DNA of 46,222 nt from Saccoglossus kowalevskii (Eukaryota > Hemichordata > Enteropneusta > Harrimaniidae), in the NCBI RefSeq assembly GCF_000003605.2, contig NW_003143796.1, positions 77,015 to 123,236 on the forward strand. The letters run 5' to 3'. Positions within the stretch are counted from its first letter, which is position 1; each line of letters opens with the position of its first letter. This document shows positions 1,225-46,222 of the stretch, piece by piece. A program made the position numbers and the translations under genes. The notes below the pieces were generated by a model that saw only the letters and a program-made list of their open reading frames with translations, had not been told where the DNA came from and searched no databases.

Positions 1225-2560
1225 TCAGGACAATGTCTATATTGGTAATAAAAACACCATTACCAGTACGTTTAACTGAGTCTGATCCTGAAGATGATCT
1301 ACTCTTAGCTAGGTTACATGTTTTGGGATTCTGGTAATCAACTAATATTTGACTTAGAAATGAGAACCATGTTGATGTTGATGCTGATTTGTTTAAATAA
1401 TGAAGATAATTTTTTCATGATTTTGCCAAGTATAATAACATTTCAATACAACTTCTAGAAAAAATGATGACTTTTGTTGGTAAATCAGTATCAATATTGT
1501 CAATCTTAAGTGTTTTTTTTTAGCTCCGCTGTCGACTTTGTCGAGCGGAGCTTATCATATGAGTGGTCGTCCGGCGTCGTCCGTGTCAATGTTTTACTTT
1601 TTCAACTTCTTTTTGAAAACTACAAGCCTGAATGCTTTGATACTTGGTGTATATGTACCTTGGGTAGACCTCTCTCAGATTTGTTCATTTCGTGATGATA
1701 TCTTCTTTAATTTTGGTGAATATTTTTGTCATTTTTGGTAAAAAGTGATATTTTTGACTTCTTGTTAAAAACTGTAAGTCCGGTTGCTTTGATATTACAT
1801 ATATAGGTACTACGTGTGGACCTCTCTCATATTTGTTCATTTCGTGATGATATCTTCTTTAATTTTGGTGAATATTTTTGTCATTTTTGGTAAAAAGTGA
1901 TATTTTCGACTTCTTGTTAAAAACTGTAAGTCCGATTGCTTTGATACTATACATTTTCTAATGATATCTTCAGTTTTTTAATTGTAATGTGCATTGCTAA
2001 CAGCGGAGCTATCTCAGCCGATAGGCTGCTTGTTTTACTTCTGATTTACTGATAGACATTGTCATAGAAACCAACCGCTATGCAAAACAGAATTGCTTTG
2101 ACCTTAATAATCTGAAGTCAGCGTACTTTCATAGCATTAACAATGAGTTTGATGGATAAGAAAATTACATTCAAATAATATTGAACTGAATACTGGAGTT
2201 CATCGTTTGAAAATTATATGTCTCGATCATGATTTATACAACCAAGTACTGAGGTTTTAACATTTTGTTGTCAAAAATGTTCTCGCTACTTATGAAACGA
2301 TCCCCACAATGACCGATTAAAAAAATAAATCCTGTAATAAACGTGTTGCAAAAATTTCAGGAAATTTATACCTCTGATAGGCAGCTTACTTTTGATGAAA
2401 GCATGATAATATTCAAAATGTCAGGTATGCAGGCAAAGATACCAATTACATTAGTGCAGTATGCAAGGTTAGGATGTACACATAGTGCCATACGCTTTGA
2501 TCTGTACCATTATCTCAGTACATCCAAATTGTGCTGGCAGGGAATTATCTGAGGAAAAAA
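1225..2560 (+). pseudogene. Decayed piggyBac-like transposase, interrupted by a repeat insertion
   Basis: Several plus-strand pieces fit a piggyBac (PGBD) transposase in order. An acidic N-terminal piece, LTESDPEDDLLLARL, lies at about 1272-1320. IDIVIETNRYAKQNCFDLNN lies at about 2053-2115, matching the ETNRYA motif near the start of the PGBD domain. A YW/MSRSWF-like piece lies at about 2190-2240. FQEIYTSDRQLTFDESMIIF lies at 2358-2417, where the D in DES corresponds to the first catalytic Asp of the DDE/D triad. The frame shifts between pieces and contains stops. The C-terminal half, including the later catalytic residues, is missing or unrecognisable. The stretch 1522-2036 is an inserted hairpin-capped element, not transposase. 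Confidence 0.75.
1522..2036 (+). mobile_element. AGCTCCGCT-family hairpin-capped element (HINE-like), complete short copy
   Basis: The 5' end at 1522-1552 is a terminal hairpin: AGCTCCGCT pairs with AGCGGAGCT around an inner CGAC-TTT-GTCG stem. It is followed by short GTCGTC-type sequence and two subrepeats with a period of about 152 bp (centred on the 'tgacttcttgttaaaaa' segments at about 1755 and 1907). The 3' end carries AGCGGAGCT again at 2002-2010 (inverse of the 5' start). Next comes a small hairpin, CAGCC-GATA-GGCTG, then CTTGTTTT. It sits in a T-run (ttttttttt before, tttt after) inside a piggyBac relic. The asymmetric inverted ends, subterminal palindrome and central minisatellite match the described layout of non-autonomous Helentrons. 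That classification is inference. Confidence 0.7.
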
Positions 2561-3400
2561 AAATGATCGTAGATAGGATGAAGAAGAGGAAGAAAATGGG
2601 ACTCATTGATGAGTGAAATAACTTGATTCAGTATTTTGTTTAAACCTGTATTACCATAATCAGGTCGGCAATTACCGGTAGTTAGCTAATTTGCATATTA
2701 AGCTAATGTATGCATAAACACAGATCATTTGCAAATGTAGTGTTTTTATAATAGCAAAAACAATTCAGGCCTTATAAGCTGGATCCTAACCATAAAGAGA
2801 CATATGCAGGGAGGAAAGGGTTAAACTATTATGATTTTTTCCATCATATGCAACTAAATAAAATTTGATGAGATATTTTTACTATATGATATACAAAACC
2901 AATAAGAAATTGCACAAAAATGCCATTTTGATGCATTTAAGTAGTAGTAGTTGGGTTATTGTACTTTATTATCTGAATTTGTGAGCAATAAAACCACAGC
3001 ATAAAAGTCAAGGATAGGTTTTAATAGTATTCTCATCAATGTGTTGTCTAGTGTACATGTCTGATTGTATCCTTCACATCAATACTCTTCCATTTCGTAT
3101 TTTAATGTCAACCAAAATTTCACTATATTTAGGAATATATTACAGGTTTTTCCTATGTTTATGATTTGACACTGTGATATGATCTGCCCTCTCATGCATC
3201 AAGGAGAAGATAGGTGCTTCTCATGCAGGCGCATTCAGCTAAATATTGGTCATTTAAACAGTGGTACGGGTACATGTAGTAGAGTGCTAAATAGAGGTTC
3301 CCTCAATATAAATAATTATGTATAAATGAATGTTTACTTTGCCCTTATATTGTAGATTCAGGGAAAATAATATTTCTAATTATGTGCATATTTGATTAGA
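2561..3400. other. Intergenic sequence, no gene seen
   Basis: AT-rich with scattered short motifs ('accggtagttagctaatttgcatattaa'). Nothing coding is recognised. Confidence 0.5.
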
Positions 3401-4543
3401 TTTTAGGTTAAATCCATGCACATTATTTACTTAATTTGCATGATACACATGTACATGTAATTAGCTTATTTTTAGCTGTTCCATGACTGTTCCACTGATA
3501 ACTGAAGAACTACAGATTGGATTTTTATGAAACTTGGTACATAGATGCTTTGGGACAATGCGCAGACCTGATTAGTTTTGGGTAAAAATCCATGCCTGTT
3601 AATTACCTAATTTGCATAATGATTAGTCAATTTGTGGCTTTTTCACTGATATCTGAAGTACTAATCATCACATTACAATGAAATTTTATAAATAGATGCT
3701 CTAGGGCAATGCACAAACCTGCTATCTTTTATGTTAATATTGTGCATATTAATTACCTAATTTGCATAATTAATCAATTTTCATCTTTGATTTTTCAAGT
3801 ACTAATCATTACATTTCAATGAAACTTTGATATTTCAAGTACTAATCATTACATTTCAATGGAACTTTGAGGACTATGTACAGACCTGATTAGTTTTTGG
3901 TTGAAATCCATGTTTATTAACTACCTAATCTGCATAATTTACCAATTTTCAGCTTTCGCACTGATATCTCAAGTACTTATTGCATTTCAATGAAACTTGG
4001 TAAATAGATGCTCTAGGACAATGCACAAACCTAATTAGTTTTGGGGTGAATATTTGTGCATTTTAATCACCTAATTTGCTTTATTAACCAATTTTTAGCT
4101 TTCACACTGATACTGTATCTCAAGTACTAATCATCACATTTCAATGAAACTTAGTACATAGATGCTCTAGGACAAATTATGCACAGATCTGGTTAGTGTT
4201 TTGTTGAAATTTGTGCATATTAATTACCTATTTTGCATAATAGGTATAAATAATAGGTATTTGCATAAATAATTATTGTCCGTGTGCTCGCGATCGCTTA
4301 TCCTCCATTCATTGCCATTCAATTTTCAGCTTTTTCACTGATATCTTAAGTACTAATCATCACATTTCAATACAACTTGGTTCATAGATTCTCTAGGACC
4401 GTGCACAGATCTGGTTAGTGTTTTGTTGAAATTTGTGCATATTAATTACCTATTTTGCATAATAGGTATAAATAATAGGTATTTGCATAAATAATTATTG
4501 TCCGTGTGCTCGCGATCGCTTATCCTCCATTCATTGCCATCTT
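3400..4543 (+). mobile_element. ACTCCC-family element body, 5' hairpin missing
   Basis: The stretch is filled with degenerate units built on 'aaacttggtacatagatgct', 'gacctgattagttttgg' and 'ttaattacctaatttgcata'. These are the same units that follow the ACTCCC hairpin at 10783. The terminal hairpin and microsatellite are absent here. The last part contains a recent internal duplication (4191-4315 and 4413-4541). Confidence 0.65.
4191..4541 (+). repeat. Near-identical direct duplication, period about 222 bp
   Basis: The segment from 'ggttagtgttttgttgaaat' through 'ctcgcgatcgcttatcc' to 'cattgccat' occurs at about 4191-4315 and again at about 4413-4541 with almost no differences. It includes an octamer palindrome, GCGATCGC, in otherwise very AT-rich sequence. 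Confidence 0.85.
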
Positions 4544-5168
4544 GAAAGAATGTTTTTAATAAGTTTGGGTATTCCTTAGCCCCTGCTAACCAATGTCTAG
4601 TCCTGTGTGAGAAGGCAATTGGGTCTATTCGTATACGAAAACATATGAGATTCGCTTTAATCATAGCCGAACTTCATGTAGCGTGTTGTCAATCATGATG
4701 CCTTATGACAAACTTTAGAACTGCTCTTCTGATTAAAATGGGAATTAGTCAATTACCCTCATACTGCGGCCTCTTTCCAATTCATTTGAACATTTATGTT
4801 GATTATTATATTGAGAAACATAAAGCTGTCTCATAGCAATTAATTTACATTTATTTCCTCAGACATTGGCTTCTTGATTTATATTTTAATCTTAGTTTTT
4901 TTTCTGTCAGTTCATCAGTCTGTAAGTATGTACATGTGTGTCAAATCCAGCTTTGCCTATGTCTCAACAGCCTCCATTTTGATTAGAATTGAACTTGTAG
5001 CATTAAACATCAGTACAATTGCTTCCTATTATTTTGGTAATTTGCATAATAATTAATTTCTTTTGACATATTCTTTGTCAGTATGTTTTTGTACAAAAGC
5101 ATTGCAACATAATTGCTTGTGTTTGTGTGAAAGGAATATTTAATTTATCGTTTATTTTAGCTTATTTA
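4544..5168. other. Intergenic sequence, no gene seen
   Basis: AT-rich. Short open frames (4446-4664 minus, 4874-5056 plus) show no recognisable domain. Confidence 0.45.
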
Positions 5169-5625: not shown

Positions 5626-5977
5626 TGGCGGTCATTAACGCAAAAGATAGATCCTATCAAATTTTTCAACGCTTGAAATTATTTTGTTCCCTGAAATAAA
5701 TTTAAAAGAATGCAAGTATATGTAGTACAGTACATTATTTTTGGCACAGAATATTAAATCGCGAAAGCGAGCTAGTGTCAAAGAACAGGTTAAAGGTTAA
5801 CTGACTGGAGTGTTTTTAATCGCAATTTATAAAAGCCTTCTTAGAACCCTGTGTACTGTTTATGTAGATGAATATCTGATAATAAGTTATGCATACCTGT
5901 ATTATTTTACTTTTTTCAGCTTTTTTTATATCATAGCATTATTATTATCAACTTAATAGTGGTGACAAATCATTTTT

Positions 5978-7401
5978 AGTCCCTGTTCGGACGCAGTCCG
6001 AAAACGGGGACTTATGTTTTGACCTCCGTGTGTGTGTGTGCGCGTGCGTGTTTGCGTGTGTGCATGTGTCTGTGCGTGCATCCAGACCTGTATCTTAGAA
6101 ATGCCTGGACGAATCACAATAAAACTTCACACATACATCATACATGATATTATACATATGCACGTCAATTTATTTCATGATCTGATTCAAAATGGCCGAA
6201 TGGCGGCCATTTTTGTGCTAAAAATCATCAAAATCAAGCATTTCTTGGCTGTTTACAGATGGATTTGTCAAACTTGGTATATACATTTGACATTATAGGA
6301 CCTTGATGCACATAATTTTGTTTTTCAAATAAGATTCAAAATGGCCGACTGGTGGCTATTTTGTATTAATGAATGTGGTTCTTGTGCCATATCTCTGACT
6401 TGCTTTCACTGATTATGTTAAAATTTTAAATATTCATTATACATCATGTCATAGATAGACAGATATATTGGTTTGACGATCCTATTCAAAATGGCCAAAT
6501 GGTGGCCTTTTTTGTGTTAAACAATCATCAAATATCAAGCATTTCTGGCATTTATGGATGGATTTCGTTCAAACTTGGTACATATATTAGACATTACAGG
6601 TTCCTGATGCACATCATTTATTTTTCAGATCGGATTCAAAATGGCTGCCTGGCGGCCATTTGGTTTTAATGAATGGGCTTCTAGACCCATATCTTCGACT
6701 TGTTTTGACTGATAATATTTTCAAATTTTAAATATTCATTGTACATCATGTCATAGACAGATATATTGGTTTGACTATCCTATTCAAAATGGCCAAATGG
6801 TGGTCATTTTTGTGCTAAACAATCATCAAATATCAAGCATTTCTGGCATTTATGGATGGATTTCGTTCAAATTTGGTACAAATATTAAACATTACAGGTT
6901 CCTGATGCACATCATTTATTTTTCAGATCGGATTCAAAATGGCTGTCTGGTGGCCATTTTGTTTTAATGAATGGGCTTCTAGACCCATATCTCCGACTTG
7001 TTTTGACTGATAATATTTTCAAATTTTAAATATTCATTATACATCATGTCATAGATAGGCAGATATATTGCTTTGACTATCCTATTCAAGATGGCCGAAT
7101 GGCGGTAATTTTTGTGCTAAAAAAATCATAAAAATCAACCATTTCTCGGCTGTTTACAGATGGATTTTGTTCAAACTTGGTATATACATTAGATATTACG
7201 AGCTGATTTTGAATGCTGTTCCAGAGCAATATCTCTCAATATGGACAAGTACTTGTTTGATGATCAGATACAAATGTCAATCATTTTAATTTAAAAAAAT
7301 CATATTCCTGACATGGTTATATTCCAGCTATATCACTATAAACAAAACTATATATCTTAAATTTAATAACTAATGGGGACTGTGCCATGCATGGCTTGTT
7401 T
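5978..7401 (+). mobile_element. AGTCCC-family hairpin-capped element (HINE-like), full copy
   Basis: The 5' terminal hairpin at 5978-6012 pairs AGTCCCTGTTCGGAC with GTCCGAAAACGGGGACT around GCA. Next is a GTGTGTGTGCGCG microsatellite (about 6026-6080). Then come repeated units with 'gattcaaaatggcc', 'ggcggccattttt' and 'aaatattcattatacatcatg' at a spacing of roughly 150-300 bp. The 3' end at about 7375-7401 has GGGGACT (inverse of the 5' start), the hairpin GCCATGCATGGC, then TTGTTT. A T-run precedes it (cattttt). No transposase is encoded, so it would be non-autonomous. Confidence 0.75.
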
Positions 7402-9788
7402 CAATTTTTCTGATATGAAAAATGTCTGCTATGTACACCAGTAAAGTTCAAGGGACTACAATATAGGTTTAAAGTACTATGGAATAGTCATGCTATGGAT
7501 TAATTAGCTAATAGTCTTTGCTTTTACATGGCTGGCAACTTTATTTCTTCTTCTGTTTCCCCATCTAGTTATAGCTGTTCTGAGAATTATTCCGACAGAC
7601 TGCAAGCAAAGGCAGCCTCGCAACATGTTAGCTTCAGTACTGTGGATCAGATTATTTTCTTAGTTTGCTTCACAAAAAAAAGCACGACATGTATATATGA
7701 ACCAACAGACCCCTTTATATTTAAAGTGCCTGTGAAATGGCCGCTATTTTCTCGTCTAAAATTATCCATTGATACATAGATATTATTAATTTCTATGTTT
7801 CTAAGCATGAATTTTTTTTTTTTAAGTGAAAAAATGTGTTTTAAACTCAGTCCACGGCAACTTTATTTTTGTTTATTTTAAAACGAGGCTCCTCATTAGC
7901 TTCTCATTTGCATACAGAAAATCCCCTTGTGACGTCAGAAGGGGAACTCGCTGGGCAGGTTGCATTGCCGATACGTGTAAATAAGGCAAATTTCTTGTGC
8001 AGTTTTCTCATCTTTGACTAAATTGTCACTTATGTACTTGTTCGTTGAAGAAGAATGTACCATAATGAACACATAGTTGAGTTAGATGCGAAATATGTCC
8101 GTTCTGGTGTAACTGGTCACCGTGATCATCACTGCCACCGTCACCAGCACCGGCACACGTTTGTACACTGTCACTGGAACCCGGCACTGGATAAAATCAA
8201 ATTAGATGCCTGACTTGTCTCGTTATTTAGCAGGTTACTAGGCATGTCACTACACTGTTTTATTTCATCTATCATCTGAGTAAAACAAGAGAAAAAAGAG
8301 AACATATTTTGACATTCTAAACATTAAACTATAGTGATCAATAAAATAGAGAAATAATTTAAAAAACGACAAATCACAGTTACTAAATAAATGACAGCCG
8401 CATGGAAATAAATTGACATTTTGTTGAAATGGGTGAACGTGTTGGGTCACGACGAGGACAAGTGCGTTAAAGGCGGTGTTTAATTGGATAACAAAAATAA
8501 TCAAGAGCGACACACATACAGATAAATTCAAAGTGGATTTGAATTAGCATGATCCATGGCGTGATTGTCATAATTATGACATCATATTAAAACTTTATTT
8601 GGTGGAAACACTTTGACAGCCCAAGCCCGGATTCTTATTCCATAAATTATTACGCAGATCAAGCTGCAAGTAAAGGTAACAGAAGTGTGAATTCAACCAT
8701 ATTTTTAGCTCCATGATTCGACATTCAACACCAATCGCCGAACAGTTCAGAAACTTTTAGCCTGCAGAAATGAAAACAATTAGCAGTGTGTAAGGGCTGT
8801 GTAATTTCCGGTTTGTCTTACACTTCGTTTTCTTGTCACTATCAAAATTATTGCTACCTTTTACTTAACACTGACTAAATGGTTTCTTTAAAACGATAAT
8901 CAGGATCGTAAAAAAAGTCAAATAATTTGAAACACTTGTCTGACGTCTCTCTCTTTCTCTCTCTCTTCTGAAATCCGCCTCGGTGATCATGAGCTGGTCC
9001 GGAATCTTTTTCTTTCAAAAGTGTTGTGCCAGGTTATGTGGCATGTGGCAGTTACGGCATTTTTCAACCATTTCTCGTTGCTTTCATGGCTTTCGGCCAC
9101 TGATGTCGCACCTTCAGATCTATTGGAAACATGTGAATACTTACACTATGACTATACGTATCACTGCTCTTCAATAATCAATAACTGCCCATTTCAGTGG
9201 AATATGAATGTAAAATGGGAAACATGTGGGTGGGCATTGCACAAGCACTTTAAAGGGATACCTTCAGTAACTTCAGCTCTAAGCATTCTTTGATTCGTCC
9301 CATATGTCATAAAGCCCAATTTCTAATGACAAAATAGTTTGAATTACAAATGGATTTTGACAATGTTTATAGCTGTATTAACCAATAATTGGAAATGATC
9401 TAATATAAAAAGGCCACATTTTAGTGATTATTTCCAATTTGGGACAGTGACAACAGATTTTTTTTTTGACTGAGGCATCATGCATGAAATTTAACATAAA
9501 AAAGGCACAAACTAAGGTCATAGTGTTATGATGGCATCAAAATATCACAGAGAATTCAACAAACATGAAAGTACACTTAATAATGTGCTATACACATCTT
9601 AAGAGGGTAGATTTTTATCATTTAAGGGTGTCACAACACCATATTCCTCTCTGAAAGATCGGAATTTTGACATTGAACTATAAAACAGGAAATTCAAGTT
9701 CAAATGAAATTGTTAAATTTATGAAGCAGATATTCGATATTTCCCTTTCACAGATTACGTTAGATCACACTGCTAATTGAAAGTCATG
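7402..9788. other. Intergenic region, no gene recognised
   Basis: Open frames at 7528-7779, 8265-8531 (minus) and 8983-9293 have no recognisable domains. Visible items are a CRE-type TGACGTCA at 7930-7937 and a CT-rich microsatellite at about 8946-8966. No first zinc-finger exon for the downstream receptor was found here. Confidence 0.5.
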
Positions 9789-9791
9789 TGC

Positions 9792-9968
9792 TGTAAAATA
9801 CTTTATTTTCGCTGAAGGAATGATTCAGTGAAAATAAAAACAAGCGAATATTCTTTTTTTTCCCATATTTTACATTTAACTCATCAAAAATCATTGAAAA
9901 TAAAATCCATACAAAACACCAAAAAGTCTTTTCAGCGAAAATTAATTCCAGCTAAACTAAAGTATTAA
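9792..9968 (+). mobile_element. Diverged copy of the 208-bp TTTTCGCT MITE
   Basis: It begins 'ctgtaaaatactttattttc' and ends near 'agctaaactaaagtatta', with internal 'aatgattcagtgaaaataaa' and 'ttttcagcgaaaattaatt'. This follows the order of the two intact copies at 18242 and 18483. The TA target duplication seen there is not preserved. Confidence 0.75.
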
Positions 9969-10567: not shown

Positions 10568-10782
10568 TTTGATCAATTTTGTGTAAAAACTGGAGCAGTA
10601 CGTGAGGCAATTTGTTTTTATACATTTACTGCACAGCCAATTTTACAGGTATTATCACTTTGAACGAAATAAGTTGAAAATAAAAGTCTGCTGCCACTTA
10701 TTTTCATGGTGAACGCGCTGACAAAAAACATAAATTTATTTTTTGTAGGCCTTCTTGATGTAATGTTGATGTAATATTTTTT

Positions 10783-11990
10783 ACTCCCGTGTGCGAAGCA
10801 CAAAAGGGAGTCTTTGCAGTTACCCTGTCTGTATGTATGTATGTATGTCTGTATGTATGTATGTCACTTTTTTTGTTCCACCATTATCTCAAAAACCACT
10901 AATCAAATTTGGGTGAAACTTGGTACATAGATTCTCTGGGATAATGCGCAGAGTTGATTAGGTTTTGGTAAAAATCTATGAATATTAATTACCTAATTTG
11001 CATGATAATTAGCTGATTTTTAGCTGTTCCAAGACTGTTCCACTGATATCTGAAGAACCACTCATTGTATTTTGATGAAACTTGGCACATGGATGCTCTG
11101 AACTAGTGCGCAGATTTGATTAGTTTTGGGTAAAAATTTATGAATATTAATTATCTAATTTGCATGATAATTAACTGATTTTAAGCTGTTCTATGACTGT
11201 TCCACTGATATTTGAAGAACCACTCATTGGATTTCAATGAAACTTGGCACATGGATGCACTGAACTATTGCGCAGATTTGGTTAGTTTTGGGTAAAAATT
11301 TGTTAATATTATTAATTACCTAATTTACATAATGATTAATCAATTTTCGGTTTTTCCACTGATACATGTATCTCATGTACTAATCATAACATTTATATAA
11401 AACTTGTTAGTTAATTAGTTTTTGGGTAAAAANNNNNNNNNNNNNNNNNNNNNNNNNNNNNNNNNNNNNNNNNNNNNNNNNNNNNNNNNNNNNNNNNNNN
11501 NNNNNNNNNNNNNNNNNNNNNNNNNNNNNNNNNNNNNNNNNNNNNNNNNNNNNNNNNNNNNNNNNNNNNNNNNNNNNNNNNNNNNNNNNNNNNNNNNNNN
11601 NNNNNNNNNNTTATTGGATTTCAATGAAACTTTTAAAGAGTACCCATCACATTTCAATGAACCTAGAACTATACACCAGATTAGTTTTTGGTAAATATTT
11701 ATGCTTCTTAATCACAATTAATTAATACTGATATCTCAAGTATTGATCATCACATTTGAATAAAACTTGGTAAATATATGCTCTAGGACAATATATGCTC
11801 TATGACTGGGTTAAAATCTGTTCATATTAATTCTCTAATTAGCATAATTTTTTTTAATTTTTTTGTTCTAATCACATTTCAATGAAACTTGGTACATTGT
11901 GCAGACCTTATTAGTTTTACACTTAAATCTGTCCATATTAGTTACCTTATTTGCATAATTAGTTTTCTATTAAGTTTCCATCAACATCTC
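10783..11990 (+). mobile_element. ACTCCC-family hairpin-capped element (HINE-like)
   Basis: The terminal hairpin at 10783-10811 pairs ACTCCCGTGTGC with GCACAAAAGGGAGT around GAA. It follows a T-run and is followed by a (TGTA)n microsatellite at about 10830-10864. Degenerate units ('gaaacttggcacatggatgc', 'ttaattacctaatttgcat') continue to about 11990, interrupted by the assembly gap. No clear 3' hairpin was found, so the right boundary is approximate. Confidence 0.7.
11433..11610. other. Assembly gap (N), 178 positions
   Basis: The run of N falls inside the degenerate units of the ACTCCC-family element. Its true length is unknown. Open frames spanning it are artefacts. Confidence 0.99.
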
Positions 11991-12430
11991 AAGTTCAAGT
12001 AATTTTAAATTAATTTTTAATGTGTCTCCAATACTTACACGGGAATTCTTTCTAAGCTTTCTTTGATTTATCCTTTTAATACCCCCCATGTCACCTTGTC
12101 ACATCTTTAGTATTATAATATTATCCATTATAATTTCATTATACATTACCTAAATGTAATAAATTGATTTAAAATTTAATCAACTATGGTTTCTAAACGT
12201 GTGATATAAAATTATTATTTAAATTACCACTGTCATTGTACTACATCTTGTTCAATTTGTTCCCACATAGTTCCTATGTAGACTCCTGGTCCCAGTCTCT
12301 CATCGCTTGAGTGCTGAGACTCAACATAAACAACATTTGTAAAATCTATAGAACTGCACTGGATGATCATATATTTGTTGTTACTGTTTTTGTTTGTGTT
12401 TTGAAACTGTGTTTTTTAATATCCTTACAG

Positions 12431-12572
12431 GGATTCTATAGACGAAGTATTGTCAAGCACAGTACATACGAGTGTCTTCGAAAACAGTGTTGTGTCATAG
12501 ATAAATATAGCCGAAATCGTTGTGCATACTGTCGATGGCAAAAATGTCTGGAAGAAGGAATGTCAAAAGATG
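12431..12572 (+). CDS. Nuclear receptor exon: second zinc finger of the DNA-binding domain
   Basis: The acceptor is 'atccttacag' and the donor is gtaagt at 12573. The exon encodes [20 protein letters not shown], then [19 protein letters not shown], then LEEGMSKD. The zinc ligands are spaced C-x5-C-x9-C-x2-C (Cys15, 21, 31, 34). The start at GF(Y/F)RR is the conserved splice position after CEGCK in many receptors. Oddities are GFYRR instead of GFFRR, CRWQKC instead of CRFQKC/CRFKKC, and an extra Cys20 beside Cys21. It ends in phase 1. The open frame continues upstream only by chance. Confidence 0.95.
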
Positions 12573-15500
12573 GTAAGTTTATATGGATATGTTTATAAGC
12601 TTTTAGGTAAGTAATTACTCTGTTGTGTGTGTGTCTGTGTGTGCGTGCATGTGTGTGCGTGCGTCCGGATTGTCATCGGCCAAATCCCAGTTATGCATCA
12701 TACGCTTTCATTCATACTACTAGATCCTAAAATCATTTTTTTGCAAATGTTCGAATCAAAAGTTGTAATAATTCATCTTTCACAAGGTTCAACTTACATA
12801 GGTCACTTATTCTATTTGTTTTATGGCATTATAATTTTACACCAGACACCAAAAACAAGGATGCATGAATCTGAGACATGCCTGGACTGATTACATTCAA
12901 ACTTCACACATACATAGTATTATACATATGCAAATCAATTTGTTTCACGATCTGATTGAAATCAAGCATTTCTGGCGGATCTTAGATGATTGAATGTCAA
13001 TCATTTTAATGTTAAAAAATCATCATAGTTAAGCATCAGCTTCTGGATCCACATCTCTGACATGTTTATGTTCAAACTGTATTACTGTGAACAAAACTAT
13101 ATATCTTAAATTTGATAACTAACAGGGACTGTGCCATGCTTGGCTTGTTTTTATTGAGTTGATCAGATCGAAATATTTCATGAAAACATTTTTTTTTTCA
13201 TAATTCAACAACTAACTGAAAAAAGTTTTCTTTTTTTCTCATACATGTAGCTGTAAAGTTTGGCAGAATTCCAAATCGTGAAAAAGAGCTTGCCATGGCT
13301 GAATTTGCTGAAAACAAGAATGATATCGAAAGCACCATTCGCAGAATGGAAGAGGAAGAACGACAGAGACGAATTGAACAGAATAAAGATCTTATTCAGT
13401 CTACTAAGCCTAATTATGTTAAACGGCCGCCACCACCTTTAATAAGTGTACCTGCTGTGTTGCCTACTTTTAAAGCCGATCCAGAAGTAATAGAAATAAT
13501 CCAACAGATAAGAGAAGCTCATTCGATGGCGTGCCCATTCAGTGAATTGAACCTCAAAAATTACACCAAACATTCTCCCAAACGGCAAAAAATTGAATAT
13601 CATAGATCACCAGAACCATTGTTTCTCTCAAGGCGAGACTATTCACCGGGTTTTATAAATTCACCAGGAGCATCATCCTCATCAAGTCAATCTTCATCAG
13701 CCGCTCCATCTCCATCAACCTCTTCTGAAGTGTCGTTTTCAGTTTCATCTCCGGAATCATTGGATTTTTCTATGGAAAATACAAAGGTGAACACACTCTT
13801 TTTTTTTTTCTTTTTTTTTTACCTGTACCTTGCAAAATATGGTCATAGCTGGATTTTTTACAGTATTAATACAGTGGAATTCTTCTCAACTTTATAGCTT
13901 TACTATTCAAAGCAGATATATTTGTATAATTTAAAATGAAAACAAATTATGAACAAAAAAAAAATTTTTTTTTTCTTCTAAGGCATTATTGCATGTGTCT
14001 GTTTGAAAACCTGCGTCTTGCAACTTTGTTTGGCAATTTTATATGACTGTTTCCGCCATGTGATTTATCCCGAAAAATCTTTGGAACTGTTAAACACATT
14101 GTTCTGAAATAGGCTTTTGTAGCATCTATTTATAATTCTAATCCCTTTGTGATTGATCACGTGGTTTAGATGTCATTTTTTCTTTAAACAGGAAGCATTT
14201 TTTTTACAGATGCCACGTTTATCTGATTATTTTGAAATTTGTCATGTTGCATCTCTATACTAAACTATTTCAGACAGCAGACATAAAATTCAAATCAATC
14301 ACAGGATTGTAAAAAAATGGATTTGTTTCTCATGTGTGCTTTAACTGAACAACTGGATATTTGGCATGTACAAATGTATAATATATGGCAACATCTTATA
14401 ATTTGTATCAGTCCCCTGGTTTGGCCGCCATCTTGGATTTCCACCAAAAATGGCCACAATTTTGGGCATTTGTTTTTCATGTGTGCTTCAACTGATCAGC
14501 TTGATATTTTGCATGTTTCCTACATGTATATGGCCATATCCTCTTATGAGAAAAATAAAATAATTTTGATCACTCACATGGTTTGGTCGCCATCTTGGGG
14601 CATTTGTTTCTCATGAATGCTTCACCTTGATCAACTTGATATTTTGCATGTATAACCAAAGCATCTTCTGAGAAAGATATCATATATATCAGTGGGTACA
14701 TATTAATGCATACTCAAGCGTCAAACTTGGACCAGACAAAGCTGTTCTGCTCTATATCATTAATTTTTATAATGGACACTGTAACTAAAAACTAGATAGG
14801 GACTTTGTCATTGACAATGACTTGTATACTATTAATGTTGTTACATTGTATTTGAGATGTATTTTATATTCTGTACGCAGTAGCAATGAAAACACAATAA
14901 CAATTGTTTGAAACCACTATACTTCAGTGTTCTCAACAGGAGAATGCTCAATCAGGTGGCTAATCTGCATATGAAAGATAATCTTAAATGAACTATTTGT
15001 CTTGTTAATTTATATTGGACACAATTATGCAATAAAAGACTATAGGGAAAACACATATATGAGCAATTCTCCGCAATTAATTACTGCAAAACTCGTGAGA
15101 AATTACTGTAAAATGTTTAATTTTGGGAATTTTGCTGATTTTTAATAAAATTCAAAGAGTACATTGTGCAAAACTTGCATATACCCAATGAAATTCAAAA
15201 ATATGTAATTGTATTCTGCGAAATGATAATAATTTACAATATTTTTTGATACTACAACCTTAAAATAACATATTCATTGAGTCATTTTATTCCCGAGATC
15301 CTGAGCATATGTTTTTCTGTGTCGCCTGTTTTGATGCCAACCTGAGTAAATAAAAATGTTAAATTAAATATTATTATTAATAAGAAAGGAATAATTGTTC
15401 ATGTTGCAGATTTATAATCCAAAGCTCCTGTAAATATATAAAATGCATATGAGACACATTACTCATGCTTCACACACAGCTCAAAAAATTGGTTTTAAAC

Positions 15501-18500
15501 TGTCAGTTTCAGCTGCCATCCTGTGCATATAGTGGTAAATTCTTTTCTATATATACAATAATAATAATACACTATAACTGAAATATGGCATGTATCTCAC
15601 TCTATGTACAACAGCTAATTCATTCATGAAAAATATCCACATATACATTGCCTACATTCTCCTAGAAAGTTGTGATCTTTCAAACTCAATGCACCAGCAT
15701 GGTATACAGGTCCCACATTGTCATATCTCCTTTCAACCTGTGTAAGCAAAATCTCAAAAACTTTTGAGCAGTTTTTAATCAAATTTATAGTACGTACAGT
15801 ACTTTGGAATAATAGGTATGCCAGAATGGCAACACCAAATGATGATAGAAATTTATAGATTTCTACTGTTTGGAATTTGACATTGATTGACCTTTACAGC
15901 AGTTATTGTGGCCTGTCTGAATACACAAACAATAAATCAGCTATTTAAAGACTATTCTGGACTTGACTTTGATTTGACCTTAACACAGTTAACACTTACC
16001 AACCCAAACTCGTTTAAATATAAACAGTCAATACCTTGACTTGACCTGAAAATTATATGGAAGTGGTCTTATCCATTCCAGTTGTGTATTTTTAACAAGT
16101 GATTAAAAAAATAATATAAGAACATTACTTTACTCAAATATTAAATATTAAAAGCCTATTTTTGTTTTAACATTTACCTCACAGTTTGGATAAAATATTG
16201 TTTTATTTCATCCAAATACATGACTCAAATAGTTGATACTCTATACTGCTGATGATGATTACGAGTTTTGACTTTTACCTTTGGACCACTAACAAGATGT
16301 CACACAATATATACATGCCTCGCTTTCTTCTAAACTTCAACAACTTTTCCTACCTTAAAACTCCAGTCTGTTTGTGATACATAGTTCTCCTGCCAGCCGC
16401 ACACAAACATCTGGTAGATACAGTGTTACAATAAACCTAATAAGTTACAACTGGAACTTTGTATGCTTTTACAAAAAACAAGTCATCTGAAGATGACACA
16501 GTCCCCACTTGTCAGATGTGATTATAGTTGGCTATGAATTATAAAGTTTGAATGTATATGTATGAAATCGGGTAGGAAGATTAAGTTGAATATCAAAAGT
16601 ATGTTACTCAAAGTTAACAGCTAGGACATCTCTATTAAATTTGGTGAAATTTGCATCAATTTTAACAAAAATTCACAATCAATTGAATATGGAAATTCAA
16701 TTGAGTCAATATTAAATAGCAAAGATATTAACAAAAATTCAAAATTAATTAAATATTCAAATTAGCTCATTAATTAATTTGAAAGTCAATATTGCATAGC
16801 ACACATCTTATATTGACAGATCAAGTAAGTCTATACCAAGTTTGGTCTCATTCGAACAATTAGTTCACAAGATATTAAGAAAAATTCAAAATTAATTAAA
16901 TATGCAAATGAATTTGTTAATGAAATTGAAACTCAATATTGCATAGCATATATCTTATATTGACAAATCAAGTCTCTACCAAGTTTGGTCTGATTTTATT
17001 ATTATTAGCTCACAAGATATTAACAAGAATTCAAATTAATAATTAAATATGCAAATGAGCTTATAATTGATTCCTTGAAAAAATAAATCAATGTGCATCT
17101 GTACCAGTGGTTACTCTGTCTTTGTACCAAGTCTCAGCAAAATCGGTCCCTGCATCTCCGAGAAATGATGATGGACACACCCAAAACTGGATTTTACAAG
17201 ATTTTGACATTCAAAATGGCCGCCAGGCAGCCATATTTTATCAAATCAGGAAATAAATCCATCTGAATATATATACCTCCACACTGTGTTCTTGTACCTA
17301 GTATCAGTCAAGGCATCTCTGAAAAATATCAATGGACAAACAAAAGCCATGATTAACAATCAAAATGGCTGCCAGTCGGCCAAATTTTATCATTTCAAAC
17401 AACGTGCATGGGTGGTCCCTTTGTCTTTGTAACAAGTCTCAACAAATTTGGTCAAGCCTTCTCCGAGAAATGACGATGGACACACAAGGGCCGAATTGAA
17501 TTTTGGTATTAAAAGTCAACCATATTTGATCGTATCAGAAAATAAATTGACATGCCACATGTATATGGTTGACCACTATGTCTTTGTACCAGGTTTCAAA
17601 AAAATCAGTCCAGCCATCTCCGAGAAATCACTCCGGATGGACGGACAAAGGCGAAACTACAACAATCATATGAACACTAAAACAAGATGCATTAATTACC
17701 GTAAAATCACTGTTTTGATCAGTTCATCATTGAAATTCAGTCTGTTGTCTCACATGATACTGTTTAATCCATTCCATTTGGAATACACCAACTTTTCGAT
17801 TTTATATATACATTAACATTTCAACCATTCAAACAACTACAAGTCTCAGAAGTTGTCTCTGTCTAGCTTCTTAATTTTTAATGATTGACTTTTACAGGTC
17901 TCGCAAGCAATAATAGCTATGATTAAAAGAATTGTGGTCTTCAGTAAAAAGTTGCCAGGATTTCGGGAACTCTTCCAGGAAGACCAGATTATTCTTCTGA
18001 AAGGTATGTTGAACTTGTTGATTAGCATACAAAGATTTTCTTAAACCATAGACAACAAGACAAAATAATAAAATTGAAAAATACATACAGCATGTTTAAG
18101 TCCAATTTTGTTACCTGTCACAAAATAAACCTGCCACAGCGTAAACTTATTAATTACTAGTCATAGCTGGTCTACCTACAAAAATAATGGTATCACCCAC
18201 CAGGTGTAAGACAGTAGAAATCACAAGCTCAGATTTGAATACTGTAGAATACTTTATTTTCGCTTGGAATTTATTTTCGCTATTTTCGCTGAAGGGATGA
18301 TTCCGTGAAAATAAAATCCAGCGAATATACTTTTTTTCCTATATTTCACATTAAACTCATGAAAAATCAGTGAAAATAAATTCCAAGCAAAACGCCCAAA
18401 AAGCATTTTCAGCGAAAATTAATTCCAGCGAAAATAAAGTATTCCACAGTAACACCCAGTTTAGTCTATACTTAGTAGTGTACTGTAGAATACTTTATTT

Positions 18501-21500
18501 TCGCTTGGAATTTATTTTCGCTATTTTCGCTGAAGGGATGATTCCGTGAAAATAAAATCCAGCAAATATACTTTTTTTCCTATATTTAACATTAAACTCA
18601 TCAAAAATCAGTGAAAATAAATTTCATACAAAACGCCCAAAAAGCCTTTTCAGCGAAAATTAATTCCAGCGAAAATAAAGTATTCCACAGTACCATCAAT
18701 TTAACTGCTAGGGATCTGTGACTTAAAGCTTGTTAGAAATTTTAATGAAACTAGTAAATACTATGTTCCTTATTTGTACTTCAGTACACACAAGTTCTTT
18801 CTAAGCTTTCTTTGATTCACTTGTATGTATATAGTGCATTATATATGACTGTTTTGATATGCAAATTGTGAACCAAATTTCTTCAATTGATGATTTTTGT
18901 GAATTGATATAAAACTCCAACTAAAGTACATTGTACTAGTACCTTGAAGATGGTCTTCAACTCCCAGATGTGTATGCCGTCTGTGCATAGAACCACATAT
19001 TTTGTGTCTTCTTCGCTCATCTTAATGGTCTTCTGACATTTTGTTATCTCTCTCTAGGCGGTGTTTTTGAGGTGTGGATGTTACAGTCATGTAATATGTT
19101 ATTGGGGGGCAGTAACGAATGTAATGACACGCCTTACAAAATTGACGACATGTCTTTATTTTGTCCGCCTAATATGATTGAAAAAATGGTTAAGGTGAGT
19201 TCATCTTCCCTCTAATCTGACCCACTTGATTAACATGCTGCATGGAAATTATTGATGATGTTAGCGTTCAGTATCAAGTTTCTACCTCCTGTGTTTCCTA
19301 GGTTGGCTGGTAGAGGGCGCCATATACGCTATATTATCAGTAGAATAAGTTGAGTTGATAATTGTATTTTGTCTTCTGCTCAACTAATTACTTTGCCTTT
19401 CGCTAAAAAAAAATGGTGTGATGACAAGCTGAAAACATGTCACAACATATTACTACATGTTTGACAGTAATACTCATTAGGTATTACGAAATATAAAACA
19501 AACAACTCATACCCTTTCTTGGCAGTAAACTTATTATTTTTCTTTATTACCTTGTAGTTTGCTGAGGGTTTCAACAAGTTTAATTTGACAGAAACCGAGA
19601 TTGCACTGGTGTCTACAGTAGCATTAGCTAATCCTGGTAAGCTTGAAATATGCATTTAATTGTCATATAACATTTGACGTGCATTTTGTGTTGTAACCTC
19701 AGCATCTTTAATTTCATACCAGACAAAAGTTCATCGAATTCATGAGTCAATTGTAACTGCAACATTTTGCAACTGGTGTAGATGTCACATATTGGCCAAT
19801 TTTTTTTTTCCAGATCGAAAAGGCCTACGGAATTCTAATCCTGTTGGCAAAATGCAGAATTCATTCCTGGAGGCTCTACAAACGGAGCTTTGCAGATATC
19901 ATGGTGTGGGAAAAGGTCGCAAACTGTTTGCTGAGATCCTTCTTAAAATGTCAGATTTAGCTGTACTCAGTGAACAACATGCCCATAATGCCAGAACACT
20001 GAAAGTAAGTTTTGTTTTGTTACTTTGCTGACTTGAAGTTTGTTTGTTTTCTTCACTGTCAACTCCTACACTGACTTTTTAATAGCAATCAGGTTTTAGG
20101 TTACTATGACAATATTTATATTTATGTGGTATTGCAAAAATTAGTATTTATATATTTTCTAGCACGTAGCACAAGAACAAATTTAAAGTGTACCACACGT
20201 TATCCTCTGGAATTATGAGTGAATGATGAACCTCTTTATTATATGCGCAACTGCGTCTTCACAAAACTGACCACCAGAAAGAAGACAAGTGTGAAAGGTA
20301 GCAGCAATATTGCAGAAAAAATTGAGATTATCTCAGGATAGAGAGTTAATTACTTGGGTCAAAAAATATCATGTGATGTGGATGGAATACCGCAAAATAT
20401 GACCACAGTTAAACATTAGGACACCACTGATAATACAGTTGCACAAATGATGAGAAGTAGTTTTGATTTGGGGGTAATTTTATTGAACAATGCTTATGAA
20501 TCCTTATGCTAATTTATGCCAATTAGCATGCTTATGTACCTCAGTGGATATGCATTAGCAGTAATTATTGTTTAAAATTGAAAGAAATATTATTTAATAT
20601 CCTTTTAAAATAAACATAGTCATTATTAACCTTTTCACCACCAGTTCCCTCTTTTCATCACAAATTCACAAAATAGTCCTGTTTATAGTCTGCACTTTGT
20701 TTGATTGACTCAAATTTTGGTTGTTTGCTCCAAAACAAGGGTTCATTTCCAGAAATATTTAAGAATATAAGAATATAAATGCAGAATAATTCAGACGAGA
20801 ATGTCTTGTGGTGAAAAGAGTATTTATTGCACTATGCACGTAATTGTTATCCTGTCCAATAATAAAAAGGGTATCATGGTCATGTGATTATGTTGTATAA
20901 GGATAGACTTAAGGCAGAAACCTACTAATAATTTTTGAGAAAGTTGGTCATATATCACATGACAATGTTCACTGGTTTATTATGTAAAATCATAGCGGAC
21001 AACAAAAAATATCCAATCATTTCCTCAATTTGCGATATGATATAATATTACTGTCATATAAACCCATTGTTAGAAGCATTATAATACTGAAAAATGCAAC
21101 ACTATCCACGAAAATTAGGATGTTGACTCCCAACATTTTATATTGCCTGGCAGTACAAATTATTGCAAAATGAATAAATTCTGGGTGTTTGCACTCATGA
21201 GTGTGCTTCTACCTTAACTAGAACACCACTTCAAATTCTTGCTATTTTGCTGGGCAAAAGGTTTCATAAAAAAAAGTCTAAGAACAAATGAAAAGAGTGG
21301 GTACCTGAACTAGTTGCTGACTTTGTGATTTCCTCATAGGATTAAGCTTTACTCCAGCAGCTAGATTGAATTAAAACATTTCAAAACTCAAAGTATATGC
21401 TGTCTTTATTAAAAATCGTCTAATTGGAGACGGTATTCATCTAATTGAGAGTATAATGGATAACACGCATGAAATTAATTTATCTGGTATTTTGTTAGCT

Positions 21501-23815: not shown

Positions 23816-24316
23816 TTTTTTTTTTATAGAATATGGAATAAGTTTCACTTTTGCGCACTTTCATCATGAGATGAAACTTTGGTTTGAAACTGCCTGAATA
23901 ACCAGTAAACGCTGACAGTTTGCAACAAAAAAACTCAGATTTATTAGTAAATCAGACAGTTTCCAAAAATAAAATAAAATCTGATTTACAAGCAAAGAGG
24001 GAACAGTCCTATTCTGGGGAAAAGAGTGAATTACAGAACATAAAAAGGCATACTTAGAAAAATAGCGATGAGACAAAAAGTGGTATAACGGGAATAAACG
24101 TGCATCCAGAACAATTGGTCACATGACCAAAAATGGTATAAATAATGAAAATTGCACTATCTTTGTATGTTGCATATTTTGTTGCATTTGGTTTACTAGT
24201 ATTAGTTTGATGTCACAACTTTCATAACATTTACTTAGTTCATCATGTACATGTGAGTATGTGCTGAAACTTAGTTGAATGCTCGCTACATATTCACGAT
24301 TCATCGTTGGATTTTT

Positions 24317-25692: not shown

Positions 25693-26599
25693 GCATACAC
25701 AAACATATGAGAATGTTTATAGCTTACAATATGAGTAGCTGTACTTCTGTGGTCTATGTCAGATAAACGGTATATACATGGTTTATGATTTACTGATTGT
25801 ATTTCATCACTGACCACTGTCTCATGTTCTCATAAAACAATAACAGTTTCAGTGTTTCTGAAATCTGCAAGATGTTGAGAGATGCATTGTAATAAGACGC
25901 AAATGTTGGGTGGGAGGTTTTAGTATGATGAATCGGCAGTTATCTATTTAAAAAAAAAACTTTCATAGACCATCAGTTCATATTTATGTAGAGGAAGTGG
26001 CATGCTCTACAATACAGTGAAGAGTACATGTATATACAGTGGCACTGTTCTCAGGATTCTATTTGACACTTATTTATCGCTATTAATGACCATGTCTTGT
26101 TGGGTGCTGTAACTGATAATATTAGTTTATACTTTACTGGTGTCTTATCTTGCTCCTTGTGAAATTTTAGAATGTCAAAAACAATCTGTATTTTGAAATT
26201 AGCCGTAATACTACTAAGTAGGCTTTCTCTGTAAATATTATATTTAAAAATACAATTTTATTTTATCAACTTAATACAATTTCCCTCATTTTTAAAGAGC
26301 TTGCCAGTTTGTGAAATTCAATCTTGATAAAATATATTATTATACATCTGTCACCGTAATGCCATGAATTACAGCATGCCATAATTTTGCCTTATTTTAT
26401 GGGGTATTTTTTTTATTCTACCATATTAGGAAATGCGAATTCCAAATATGGAATGATTACACACGTAAGTGTCCTCTAATAATAAAAACAAACATGACTG
26501 CCACTAGAGTTTGACAGGAATCCACATAAAGAAGTTCGCTGATTCTGTTCTAAACATTTTGGATTTCGGCATGAAGTATCCTTGGAAGGAAAAGATGTA
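25693..26599. other. Intergenic sequence, nothing recognised
   Basis: AT-rich. There is no coding signal and no recognisable repeat. Confidence 0.45.
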
Positions 26600-26746
26600 T
26601 AATAATAAGGAGATTATAAGGATACCTCAAAGTATGCACTCAGACAGTACGCTGCACATCGACTTCCACTGCATGTTTTTCGATACTTCCGCTGTACTGC
26701 CTTTGTGCATACTTTGAAGTATCCTCATAATAACCTTATATTATTA
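26600..26746. repeat. Long imperfect hairpin (foldback element), about 147 bp
   Basis: The left arm, about 26600-26639 (taataataagg...ggatacctcaaagtatgcac), pairs with the right arm 26705-26746 (gtgcatactttgaagtatcc...ttatatttatta-like). Pairing continues inwards through 'cagtac'/'gtactg'. The open frame 26511-26717 across it is incidental. It may be a foldback MITE. A structured transcript is possible but unsupported. Confidence 0.7.
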
Positions 26747-34745: not shown

Positions 34746-36340
34746 GTGAGTAAACGACCGATTGTTGTTCACCAACCTACATTCTTTTAGACTGAAATGC
34801 GACGTACCAAGTATACTAGTATACGATAACAACTAGCCACCATGCATATGACCTTGATCAAAGACAAAGGAGGTCGATTTTATTTCGGTCTGCTTTGCAC
34901 ATTGAATTGCATATTTGATTTCTTGCAATATTATGTTCATGCCATTTTTTATGAGAATGACGTAGTTCGTCCAAGTTATTTTTTTGCAGACCAACCACTC
35001 CTGATTGGTCACCGATCAAACGTACTGGAGTAATTTATTTGAGTGACATCGACCATGTCGCCCACTGCCACGGTGTTCCATTTGTTCACATGGAAAGGCA
35101 TATTGAGCTTCTGGTCAATAATTCCGTGTTCAGTGGAAATCATGTCTTTCTGTTCTGATTTTGATTCTACGACTGTCACACAAACACACTGAACACTGGT
35201 TTATTGTTCTGCAATTTCGTTGTCTGGTGCTCCGTTTTTTCATTTGTTCCTTTCTTTGTGAATGTATTTTCCTTTTACTCACTGGGTCCAAAGACTTGTG
35301 TATTGTTTGTGTACTTAACTTTTACAATATAACAACTGTATAATTTACATACAATGATTTTTGGCGTATTACTCCCCAGAATGACTCACTGCTCATATCT
35401 TCCGCCATGTCGGCAAACACAACACGGAAGTGATGTCGTGACCGAATTTCTGAGAAAGTTACGTCAGCGTTTAGGTTGTTGATTGGGCCTTCAGTACTTG
35501 GCCGCCTTTATGAAGAGTTTGTGAAAACGAACTATCGACGGCGCTGACAAGGGCACTTTCAAAGGGGAGGGGGGTGGGTGGATGGGTGTCAGGTGTTAAC
35601 ACATGCATATTATTACTTTACATTAATTTGCTGTTTATTTTCACTGATTTTTTACAAATTTAATTTAAAGTATAGGAAAAAATGTATTGTCGCTGCATTC
35701 TATTTAAAAAAATTCCAAGTGAAAATATAGTTTTTTACAGTATAGTTTTAGAAGTCAATATTTATTTGTGTTCAGTCTTTAGTATTACAGTGATACATAA
35801 AACAATAATATAGAATATGTATACTATGAAGATTTTACGTGATTAAAATACACAGTAACAGTTACAGCCGTAACTTGTGTACTTAACCCAGAAAAAAAAA
35901 TGATTACCCTGGTAAGTACTTAACCAGAATAACTAGTGCTTGCAATAACACTTGTATTCAATACTGTTTTTTCGATTCTTGTAAACGTGTTGATTGAGAA
36001 GGGAAAACAAGAAATTAAAGCTATTACATAATAATAATATAAGTACTTGTTACTTCTCAGTCACATGAAGGTCAAGCAACTATGATTTAACTAATTCTTA
36101 CCATGACTGTCACAAAGTGAGGAATTTCAGCCAATCATGTTGCTGCTGTGAATAAGCATAGCTTAATTTGTAGTTGTTTTGTCATACATTCAGAGATTTC
36201 ATTACATTGATCTCACGTACCAATATCCAGGTTACGGCATAAACACGGACACTCTAGAACGCCATAAACCAGTTGAGTGTTTGACCTTAATTTACTGACA
36301 AACAAAAGTGAGTAATATCATCCATAGTTGATTTTTTTTC
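34746..36340 (+). other. Putative first intron or flank, no exon recognised
   Basis: It starts gtgagtaa. It contains an Ets-type ACGGAAGTG at about 35423 and a CCGCCATG at about 35403. No open frame shows coding character. Confidence 0.4.
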
Positions 36341-36346: not shown

Positions 36347-36482
36347 TCAATGGTGTAATGTATCTTTTACCTCCATGGTGTAATGTATTTCTCACATCCA
36401 TGGTGTAATGTATTTCTCACATCCATGTTGTAATGTATTTCTCACTTCCATGGTGTAATTTTTTTTTACTTCCATGGTGTTA
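36347..36482 (+). repeat. Minisatellite, about 25-bp unit, 5-6 copies
   Basis: The unit 'tccatggtgtaatgtatttc' plus 'tcaca' repeats with small changes (ccatgttgtaatg, ccatggtgtaattttttt). Each unit contains CCATGG or a one-base variant. Confidence 0.9.
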
Positions 36483-36489
36483 TCGTGAT

Positions 36490-41890: not shown

Positions 41891-41897
41891 AATGTAG

Positions 41898-43006: not shown

Positions 43007-43019
43007 AAAAAAAATGACA

Positions 43020-44300: not shown

Positions 44301-44339
44301 GTATTGTATGTTTCTCTACATTTCCAATACACCGCCAGT

Positions 44340-44760
44340 TCTGAAATGATAGAAAGGCTTGAATTTGATGGATTTGTTGATAAATGGACGCCATTGGACG
44401 GTCTTGAATTGGATCGTCAAATGAACGTTTGTGCATATGTGAGACGTAATGCATGCTGTACGTGTGTGTATAAAATTCAAATGTTGGTGAAGGCATGTCT
44501 GAGATATGGCCCCAGAACAGCATTCATTGAAACAAAATGACTGTCAGTTGGCCACTTTGAATCCGATTCAAAAACAAAAGAGCATGCAATGTCATACAGT
44601 GACCAATGTATGTACCAAAAATCCATCCTTAGGCAACTAAGATCTGGAAAAGCAAAGCTGTATCTCAAAATTTCATCAGTGACATACAGTAGCGTGAAAA
44701 AATGATAATGTTTGAAAAAAAAGTACTTATCACACATTTGATGTTACTTCAATGAGGCAT
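44340..44760 (-). repeat. AGTCCC-family body fragment, inverted
   Basis: The reverse complement carries 'gattcaaagtggccaactga', 'cagacatgccttcaccaac' and 'acgtacagcatgcattacgt' type segments comparable with the 5978 and 45690 copies. The ends are missing and the copy is much diverged. Confidence 0.4.
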
Positions 44761-45689: not shown

Positions 45690-45985
45690 TCATTTCTGTC
45701 CTTCAATAACTGTATCTCAGTCGTGCATGGTTGGATTCCATTCAAAATGTGCATGTACATCATGTAACCTTGATGCATGTTATTTTGTTTTTCCTGATTG
45801 AATTTAGAATGGCTGTCTACTGTTACTGAATACTGTTTTGAGGTGTCTCTGATGTGGCTGGTCTGATCATGTTCAAATTCCACACATACATCACGTGTAT
45901 GCACACGCATTTGTTTCACATTCTGATTCAAGATGGACAAATGGCAGCCATTTTAGTGCTAGTAATGCTTGATAAACTTCAATTG
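45690..45985 (+). repeat. AGTCCC-family body fragment
   Basis: It contains 'catcatgtaaccttgatgca', 'ttcaaattccacacatacat', 'ctgattcaagatggacaaat' and 'ggcagccattttagtgctag', matching the body of the 5978-7401 element. Both ends are missing. Confidence 0.6.
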
Positions 45986-46179
45986 CAGAGTAAAGGAAGG
46001 AATCCCTCAGGTGAAGATGCTCAATTTTTATCATGTCTGTCATTATTGAGGCAATGGGTATTTTCGTAAGCTGTAATCAATTGCTTTTAATTATCGTAAT
46101 AATGTAATTTAAATAAATAAATAAAAACGTAAATTCATAGACATGGGCAAGGTGTAAAATCTATTCAGTTATATTTTTG

Positions 46180-46222
46180 ACTCCCGTGTGCGAAGCACAA
46201 AAGGGAGTCTTTGCAGTTACCC
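46180..46222 (+). mobile_element. Start of another ACTCCC-family element, cut by the window edge
   Basis: All 43 bases from the hairpin ACTCCC to the window end are identical to 10783-10825, again after a T-run (atattttt-g). Only the terminal hairpin and the first few bases are in view. Confidence 0.8.

Follow-up and report, generated by a model that had tools for sequence, protein, structure and literature searches.

The rolling-circle transposons of the Helitron2 group carry repeats that are placed differently at their two ends. In the description of these termini by Bao and Jurka (Bao & Jurka 2013, PMC3627910), the 5′ repeat is part of a hairpin at a distance of 0-2 bp from the terminus; the 3′ repeat, about 20-30 bp in from its terminus, has a hairpin downstream of it; insertion follows TTTT in the Chlamydomonas examples, and compensatory changes are reported. 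HINEs, as characterised by Thomas et al. (2014, PMC4067079), have palindromic subterminal inverted repeats (subTIRs), a 3′ palindrome, variable flanking Ts, optional microsatellites or tandem repeats, no target modification and no coding capacity, and a family is delimited there by subTIRs identical over at least 11 bp. In the Cg_HINE elements of the Pacific oyster, a left flank with a subTIR, its complement and a microsatellite (several of them GTCY/GTCC) is followed by monomers resembling satellite DNA and then by a 3′ subTIR and palindrome; the most abundant monomer clusters are 140-180 bp long, and monomers are described as unrelated between groups (PMC7492417). Here we analyze a stretch of 46,222 nucleotides from the hemichordate Saccoglossus kowalevskii (NCBI RefSeq assembly GCF_000003605.2, contig NW_003143796.1, positions 77,015 to 123,236 of the forward strand; hereafter the window), which holds three families of hairpin-capped repeats, two of them with a closely similar layout.

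We conclude, with a probability of about 0.9, that these repeats are relics of several non-autonomous rolling-circle families of the Helitron2/Helentron type (HINEs), which would have moved by the mechanism outlined in the last section. The assignment is very likely right for families 1 and 2, and for family 3 it is likely. The find is one of new families of an already described element type, and because the DINE-1 paper includes acorn worm, sea urchin, fish and frog among the sources of its Helentron proteins, Helentron-type elements are known in deuterostomes too. A search by words, not sequences, found no paper naming these families in its title or the start of its abstract; they may be catalogued already. 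All copy and end counts given below refer to this 46-kb window and to its DNA sequence alone.

Anatomy of the element ends

An earlier note on this DNA had read five terminal hairpins, each following a run of Ts, and all five are present. Those beginning at 1522 and 24317 are identical (31 nt; family 1), that at 5978 is 35 nt long (family 2, AGTCCC), and those at 10783 and 46180 are again identical (29 nt; family 3, ACTCCC). At least four Ts stand directly before every hairpin (the run reads TTTTTG before 46180), and T4 or T4G lies upstream of five of the five 5′ ends, yet of only 694 of the 29598 non-T bases in the window. Folded as single-stranded DNA, with z-scores taken against dinucleotide shuffles, the hairpins reached -13.1 kcal/mol at both 1522 and 24317 (z-score -6.1 each), -12.4 at 5978 (-4.6), -7.4 at 10783 (-2.0) and -9.1 at 46180 (-2.9), the weak ACTCCC hairpins of family 3 being just 2.0 and 2.9 standard deviations better than shuffles. 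Positions 1517-1949 match 24312-24786 at 85%, the match beginning within the T-run, and 10771-10825 match 46168-46222 at 96%; upstream flanks differ in both pairs. The weight of the 5′ evidence is this identical hairpin at the head of dispersed copies with unlike upstream flanks.

Two elements retain their 3′ ends as well. The complete family-1 element, at 1517-2033 (+), runs from a T-run (1517-1521) and the 5′ hairpin (1522-1552) through a GTC/GTCC microsatellite and 152-bp subrepeats (1599-1951) to an inverse repeat (2000-2010), a second hairpin (2015-2028) and CTTGT, which ends at 2033. The complete family-2 element, at 5973-7399 (+), has a T-run, the 5′ hairpin (5978-6012), a GT/GC microsatellite (6033-6081), 149-bp subrepeats (6122-7274), an inverse repeat (7376-7381), a hairpin (7384-7395) and TTGT (7396-7399). 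In family 1 the inverse repeat, ACAGCGGAGCT, matches the inverse of the element's own 5′ arm at 11 of 11 bases, and the 5-bp hairpin behind it has the stem CAGCC-GATA-GGCTG. In family 2 the corresponding repeat is GGGACT (6/6 to the element's own 5′ arm). A family-2-related copy at 12619-13148 (+), whose 5′ hairpin is not recognisable, comprises a GT microsatellite (12619-12662), subrepeat remnants (12866-13067), an inverse repeat (13121-13130), a hairpin (13133-13144) and TTGT (13145-13148); its inverse repeat, AACAGGGACT, agrees at 10 of 10 positions with the inverse of the ten bases that open the 5978 element, and this string is unique in the window bar the complement of the 5978 5′ end. 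The two family-2 3′ regions, 7308-7401 and 13057-13150, match at 87% with a joint stop at CTTGTTT. Copies begin in a T-run or stop at CTTGTTT, whereas their flanks diverge.

The same order of GGGACT, hairpin and CTTGT recurs at the minus-strand end 16505-16478 and at a fifth 3′ end, 14798-14825. The other four ends had been listed in the earlier note (2002-2036, 7375-7401, 13123-13150 and, inverted, 16477-16506), and each was found to carry the inverse motif, hairpin and TTGT; the fifth was absent from that list. Ts follow CTTGT at the other 3′ ends and ATAC follows it at the fifth, so the conserved limit coincides with the last base of CTTGT or falls slightly short of it. At all five ends (family 1 and the family 2/AGTCCC group), 18-23 nt separate the inverse repeat from the 3′ terminus. 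Against 200 dinucleotide shuffles, the combined plan of inverse motif, hairpin and TTGT occurred once in the window and in none of the shuffles for family 1, and four times in the window against a mean of 0.1 and a maximum of 2 per shuffle for AGTCCC.

We compared the four AGTCCC-group ends after aligning them on TTGT. Those at 7375, 13123, 16506 (minus strand) and 14798-14825 have GGGACTKTGYCA...TGRCTTGT in common, that is, they share GGGACT, K, TG, YCA...TGR and CTTGT while their loops vary; the stem is GCCA...TGGC in two and GTCA...TGAC in two, a single compensatory change from C-G to T-A. Four of the five 3′ ends are variants of one AGTCCC terminal group, and because their stems are related the 3′ ends are not independent designs. 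The earlier note's statement that the stems differ is therefore right for family 1 against the rest and wrong for the other four, which have a common sequence. Nor do these ends imply, as the note had it, that they are recognised by structure, since the comparison is mostly among four ends of one sequence-conserved group with one compensatory change; such recognition is possible.

The flanks bear on how the elements came to lie where they do. A T-run precedes five of five 5′ ends, a T follows CTTG at the five 3′ ends, and the flanks of the two complete copies share only Ts, a pattern compatible with insertion between T and T without duplication, as far as flanks in one assembled sequence can indicate. 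Foldback or miniature inverted-repeat transposable element (MITE)-like DDE transposons, with terminal hairpins produced from inverted repeats by chance, would likewise have inverted repeats at both ends of each complete element and, as in 1517-2033 and 5973-7399, no recognised coding sequence, and DINE-1-like elements were once annotated as MITEs, according to the account in PMC4067079. Their ends would not, however, account for a 3′ repeat set 18-23 nt in from the terminus and followed by a separate hairpin, or for flanks that have nothing but Ts in common, and we consider this explanation very unlikely. Canonical Helitrons (Helitron1) would explain a 3′ hairpin near the end and the lack of an evident target duplication. 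Those elements are described as having 5′-TC and CTRR-3′ ends without a 5′ hairpin (PMC4067079, PMC3627910), whereas the repeats here begin with T-run/AG or T-run/AC, end in CTTGT and have a 5′ hairpin, which leaves Helitron1 as the least probable of the alternatives weighed here.

Core arrays and incomplete copies

Between their ends the elements consist of a microsatellite and tandem subrepeats. The three microsatellite types described in the earlier note (GTC/GTCC, GT/GC and TGTA) are all there, as are its subrepeats of about 150 bp, whose units measure 149-162 bp wherever sequence remains after the microsatellite: the periods are 152 and 157 bp in family 1, 298 bp (2 x 149) in family 2 and 162 bp in family 3. 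We searched the window with subrepeat profiles, taking the best matches in ten shuffled windows as the null. Profiles of families 1, 2 and 3 gave no cross-match beyond a family-3 match in family 2 with an E value of 0.085 (best in shuffled windows 0.33, 0.53 and 0.24). We therefore rejected a grouping of the three as one family by their cores, and the note's description of them as unrelated holds, the profiles showing no link beyond E 0.085. It does not extend to the core of an inverted AGTCCC-group element at 16478-17659 (-), which is related to family 2.

In this inverted element, whose 5′ hairpin is not recognisable, a family-2-related array (17659-17108) and a second, 147-bp array (17078-16660) precede the inverse repeat (16505-16500), hairpin (16497-16482) and TTGT (16481-16478); the periods of the two arrays are about 157 and 147. 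The family-2 profile matches the 157-bp array with E values of 4e-11, 1e-5 and 0.012. Part of this similarity lies in a palindromic motif, 17207-17250 also matching on the other strand (E 2e-5), and the best matches span 112-138 nt, extending past the motif. The 147-bp array, which sits near the 3′ end, is marginally like family 3 (E 0.005 for the family-3 profile at 17144-17044; E 0.008 and 0.04 for its own two-unit profile). The element looks like a mosaic on these profile matches, and its two arrays may reflect a swap of arrays between lineages. Elements with two arrays are described among the oyster HINEs (PMC7492417), and the mixing of arrays among elements is described in a review (PMC12628747).

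Further copies are less complete. The second family-1 copy, at 24312-25105 (+), has a T-run, a hairpin (24317-24347) identical to that of the first copy, a GTC microsatellite (24367-24408) and 157-bp subrepeats (24426-25105), its 3′ part being lost in an N gap (25106-25692). The AGTCCC-group element at 14321-14825 (+) has no recognisable 5′ end; it carries subrepeats of its own (14321-14719), the inverse repeat AGGGACT (14798-14804), a hairpin (14807-14821) and TTGT (14822-14825). Family 3 occupies 10778-11963 (+), with a T-run, a hairpin (10783-10811), a TGTA microsatellite (10826-10864) and 162-bp subrepeats (10874-11963) broken by an N gap (11433-11610); its second 5′ end, at 46175-46222 (+) with the hairpin at 46180-46208, is the 96% match described above and stops at the window limit. 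A candidate 3′ end for family 3 at 12036-12068 was rejected: its inverse match (12036-12046) is 9/11, it is without CTTGT, and it is one of 8 such matches outside the family's own hairpins. The string TAAGCNTTCTTTGATT occurs exactly at 9280-9295, 12053-12068 and 18802-18817, the last two sharing a longer stretch, and perhaps marks the end of another repeat family.

Subrepeats also occur alone. Diverged family-1-type units lie at the window start (4-207, +; E 1.2e-5 and 4.7e-14), diverged family-2-type units at 44343-44618 (-; E 4.4e-11 and 7.3e-16) and 45754-45968 (+; E 2.9e-5 and 1.9e-12), and family-3-type units at 3382-4479 (+), with pairwise matches to 10874-11405 and a best profile E of 1.5e-41, a value to be read with the fact that several units from this array built the profile. 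Such arrays without recognisable ends (3382-4479, 44343-44618 and 45754-45968) would be expected if satellite-like arrays had simply grown from microsatellites, with hairpins that arose by chance or are kept as DNA or RNA structures and are not transposon ends, and T-run-plus-hairpin sites do appear in shuffled sequence too. This explanation is difficult to reconcile with identical hairpins heading dispersed copies with unlike flanks, with 10- and 11-base inverse repeats directly before a hairpin and CTTGT, or with Rfam, in which no family reached the gathering score; we place its very small chances between those of the MITE-like and the Helitron1 explanations. Within the family-3-type array, 4180-4318 and 4402-4540 are identical over 139 bp (100%), where other units are 60-80% alike, a sign either of recent duplication or of an error in the assembly.

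Genes and other repeats in the window

Nuclear receptors are animal genes, and one such gene surrounds several of the elements. A zf-C4 stretch within 12311-12595 (+; E 5.9e-14) matches nuclear receptors in PDB, and a stretch like a ligand-binding domain follows at 17889-18041 (+; E 8e-5, just below the Pfam cut-off); the elements at 12619-13148, 14321-14825 and 16478-17659 lie between them.

A Rep/helicase domain was not found in 23 translated stretches of the window, including 15 of the 21 stop-to-stop open reading frames of at least 105 amino acids (the other 6 span an N gap), though a spliced or decayed gene could escape such a search. The end hairpins had 0 exact matches in viral contigs and the family-3 hairpin 0 in prokaryote genome contigs, a blastn search of plasmids and phages with 5973-7401 found no match, and ARAGORN, run with the bacterial code, returned nothing.

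Broken reverse-transcriptase fragments at 21375-21889 (+; RVT_1, E 5e-5 and 1e-4, both below the Pfam cut-off) are retrotransposon remains, judging by these matches. A TTTTCGC-rich, MITE-like family occurs at 9804-9966, 18240-18454, 18481-18695 and 35634-35743 (-), with terminal inverted repeats that agree at 93% (18240-18281 against 18451-18411) and two adjacent copies that are 96% alike. Positions 26599-26744 form a long imperfect hairpin of about 146 nt (76% self-complementary), and 36350-36480 hold 5.3 copies of a 25-bp tandem repeat with the unit ATGGTGTAATGTATTTCTCACATCC. Two dispersed pairs complete the list, 5166-5343/20626-20791 (77% identity over 179 columns) and the 68-bp pair 32257-32324/42941-43008 (84% identity).

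Mechanism and comparison with known systems

By analogy with the known family, a Rep/helicase encoded at another genomic site, by an autonomous element, would nick the T-run at the 5′ end, and one strand would be peeled off by rolling-circle synthesis. Synthesis would stop at the 3′ inverse repeat and hairpin, possibly when pairing between the end repeats opens the 5′ hairpin, and the freed strand would enter another T-run without target duplication. The core arrays would be passengers, expanding and being exchanged between elements. The stopping step follows the proposal of Bao and Jurka, in whose account the asymmetric repeats of the two ends pair with each other, which undoes the 5′ hairpin and fixes where replication ends (PMC3627910). 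With DNA parameters, the duplex of 5′ arm and 3′ repeat in family 1 is predicted to be more stable (-16.2 kcal/mol) than the 5′ hairpin (-12.8); the duplex of the family-2 5′ arm with the copy at 13121 reaches -12.5, the hairpin -12.1. In these calculations family 1 agrees with the model and family 2 does so only via the 13121 copy; because the energy of a duplex cannot strictly be compared with that of a hairpin, neither family tests it.

Several observations weigh against assigning the repeats to the Helitron2/HINE type. Both ends are kept in two elements only, 1517-2033 and 5973-7399, and the whole plan can be checked in these alone because the 24317 copy meets an N gap, the 46180 copy meets the window end and the 10783 copy has an internal N gap. 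Family 3 presents just the 5′ half of the plan, its 3′ end is not established, and the combined 3′ plan for ACTCCC was found 0 times in the window. The 3′ hairpins are weak, the five ends folding 0.2 to 2.8 standard deviations better than shuffles (z-scores -0.2 to -2.8). Within the family-2 element the 3′ repeat and the 5′ arm agree over just 6 bases, and the duplex predicted for them (-8.0 kcal/mol) is less stable than the 5′ hairpin (-12.1). Counted on both strands, 13 sites, the five ends included, have a T-run followed by a hairpin whose outer arm is 6 bp, against a mean of 6.8 in 100 dinucleotide shuffles, one of which reached 13; because the shuffle counts come near the observed one, we dropped this signature as stand-alone evidence. 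In the mite HINEs, as described in PMC4067079, 38-60 bp separate the 3′ subTIR from the terminus, more than the 18-23 nt found here. The Helentron-like class proposed in the earlier note is nonetheless well supported for families 1 and 2 by their anatomy: the 5′ flank is T-rich and leads into a hairpin with the end repeat, the core is satellite-like and follows a microsatellite, and an inverse repeat 18-23 nt in precedes a 3′ hairpin. For family 3 the agreement extends to the 5′ half.

Taken further, several HINE lineages with unrelated cores and differing ends may coexist, with one Rep moving all of them by the geometry of hairpin and inverse repeat plus CTTGT, not by sequence; the 5′ arm would pair with the 3′ repeat in preference to folding into its hairpin, making the two ends a strand-exchange stop switch, and core arrays would be swapped between lineages. 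We offer this combination tentatively and think it rather unlikely to hold in full. The HINE-type families added here, two of them with both ends defined, are useful for repeat annotation, and the family-1 ends offer a compact and clean case in which to test the published, unproven idea that the rolling-circle end point is set when repeat pairing opens the 5′ hairpin.

Set beside the published descriptions, the repeats resemble Helitron2 in the 5′ repeat within a terminal hairpin, the inner 3′ repeat before a hairpin, the T-run before the 5′ end and the compensatory change, and the depth of the 3′ repeat, 18-23 nt, is close to the 20-30 bp given for that group. They differ in that the published group is set by Rep/helicase phylogeny whereas the families here are set by end anatomy, and the end sequences differ (PMC3627910). 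With the HINEs and Helentrons of mite, Culex and Drosophila, as portrayed in PMC4067079, they share palindromic subTIRs, a 3′ palindrome, border Ts and a microsatellite with tandem repeats, without coding sequence; beside the 11-bp family rule, subTIR identity is 11/11 in family 1 and, in family 2, 6/6 within one copy and 10/10 between two copies. Compared by description, not sequence, the Cg_HINE elements of the Pacific oyster run in the same order, from microsatellite through satellite-like array to subTIR and palindrome, in a different host (PMC7492417).

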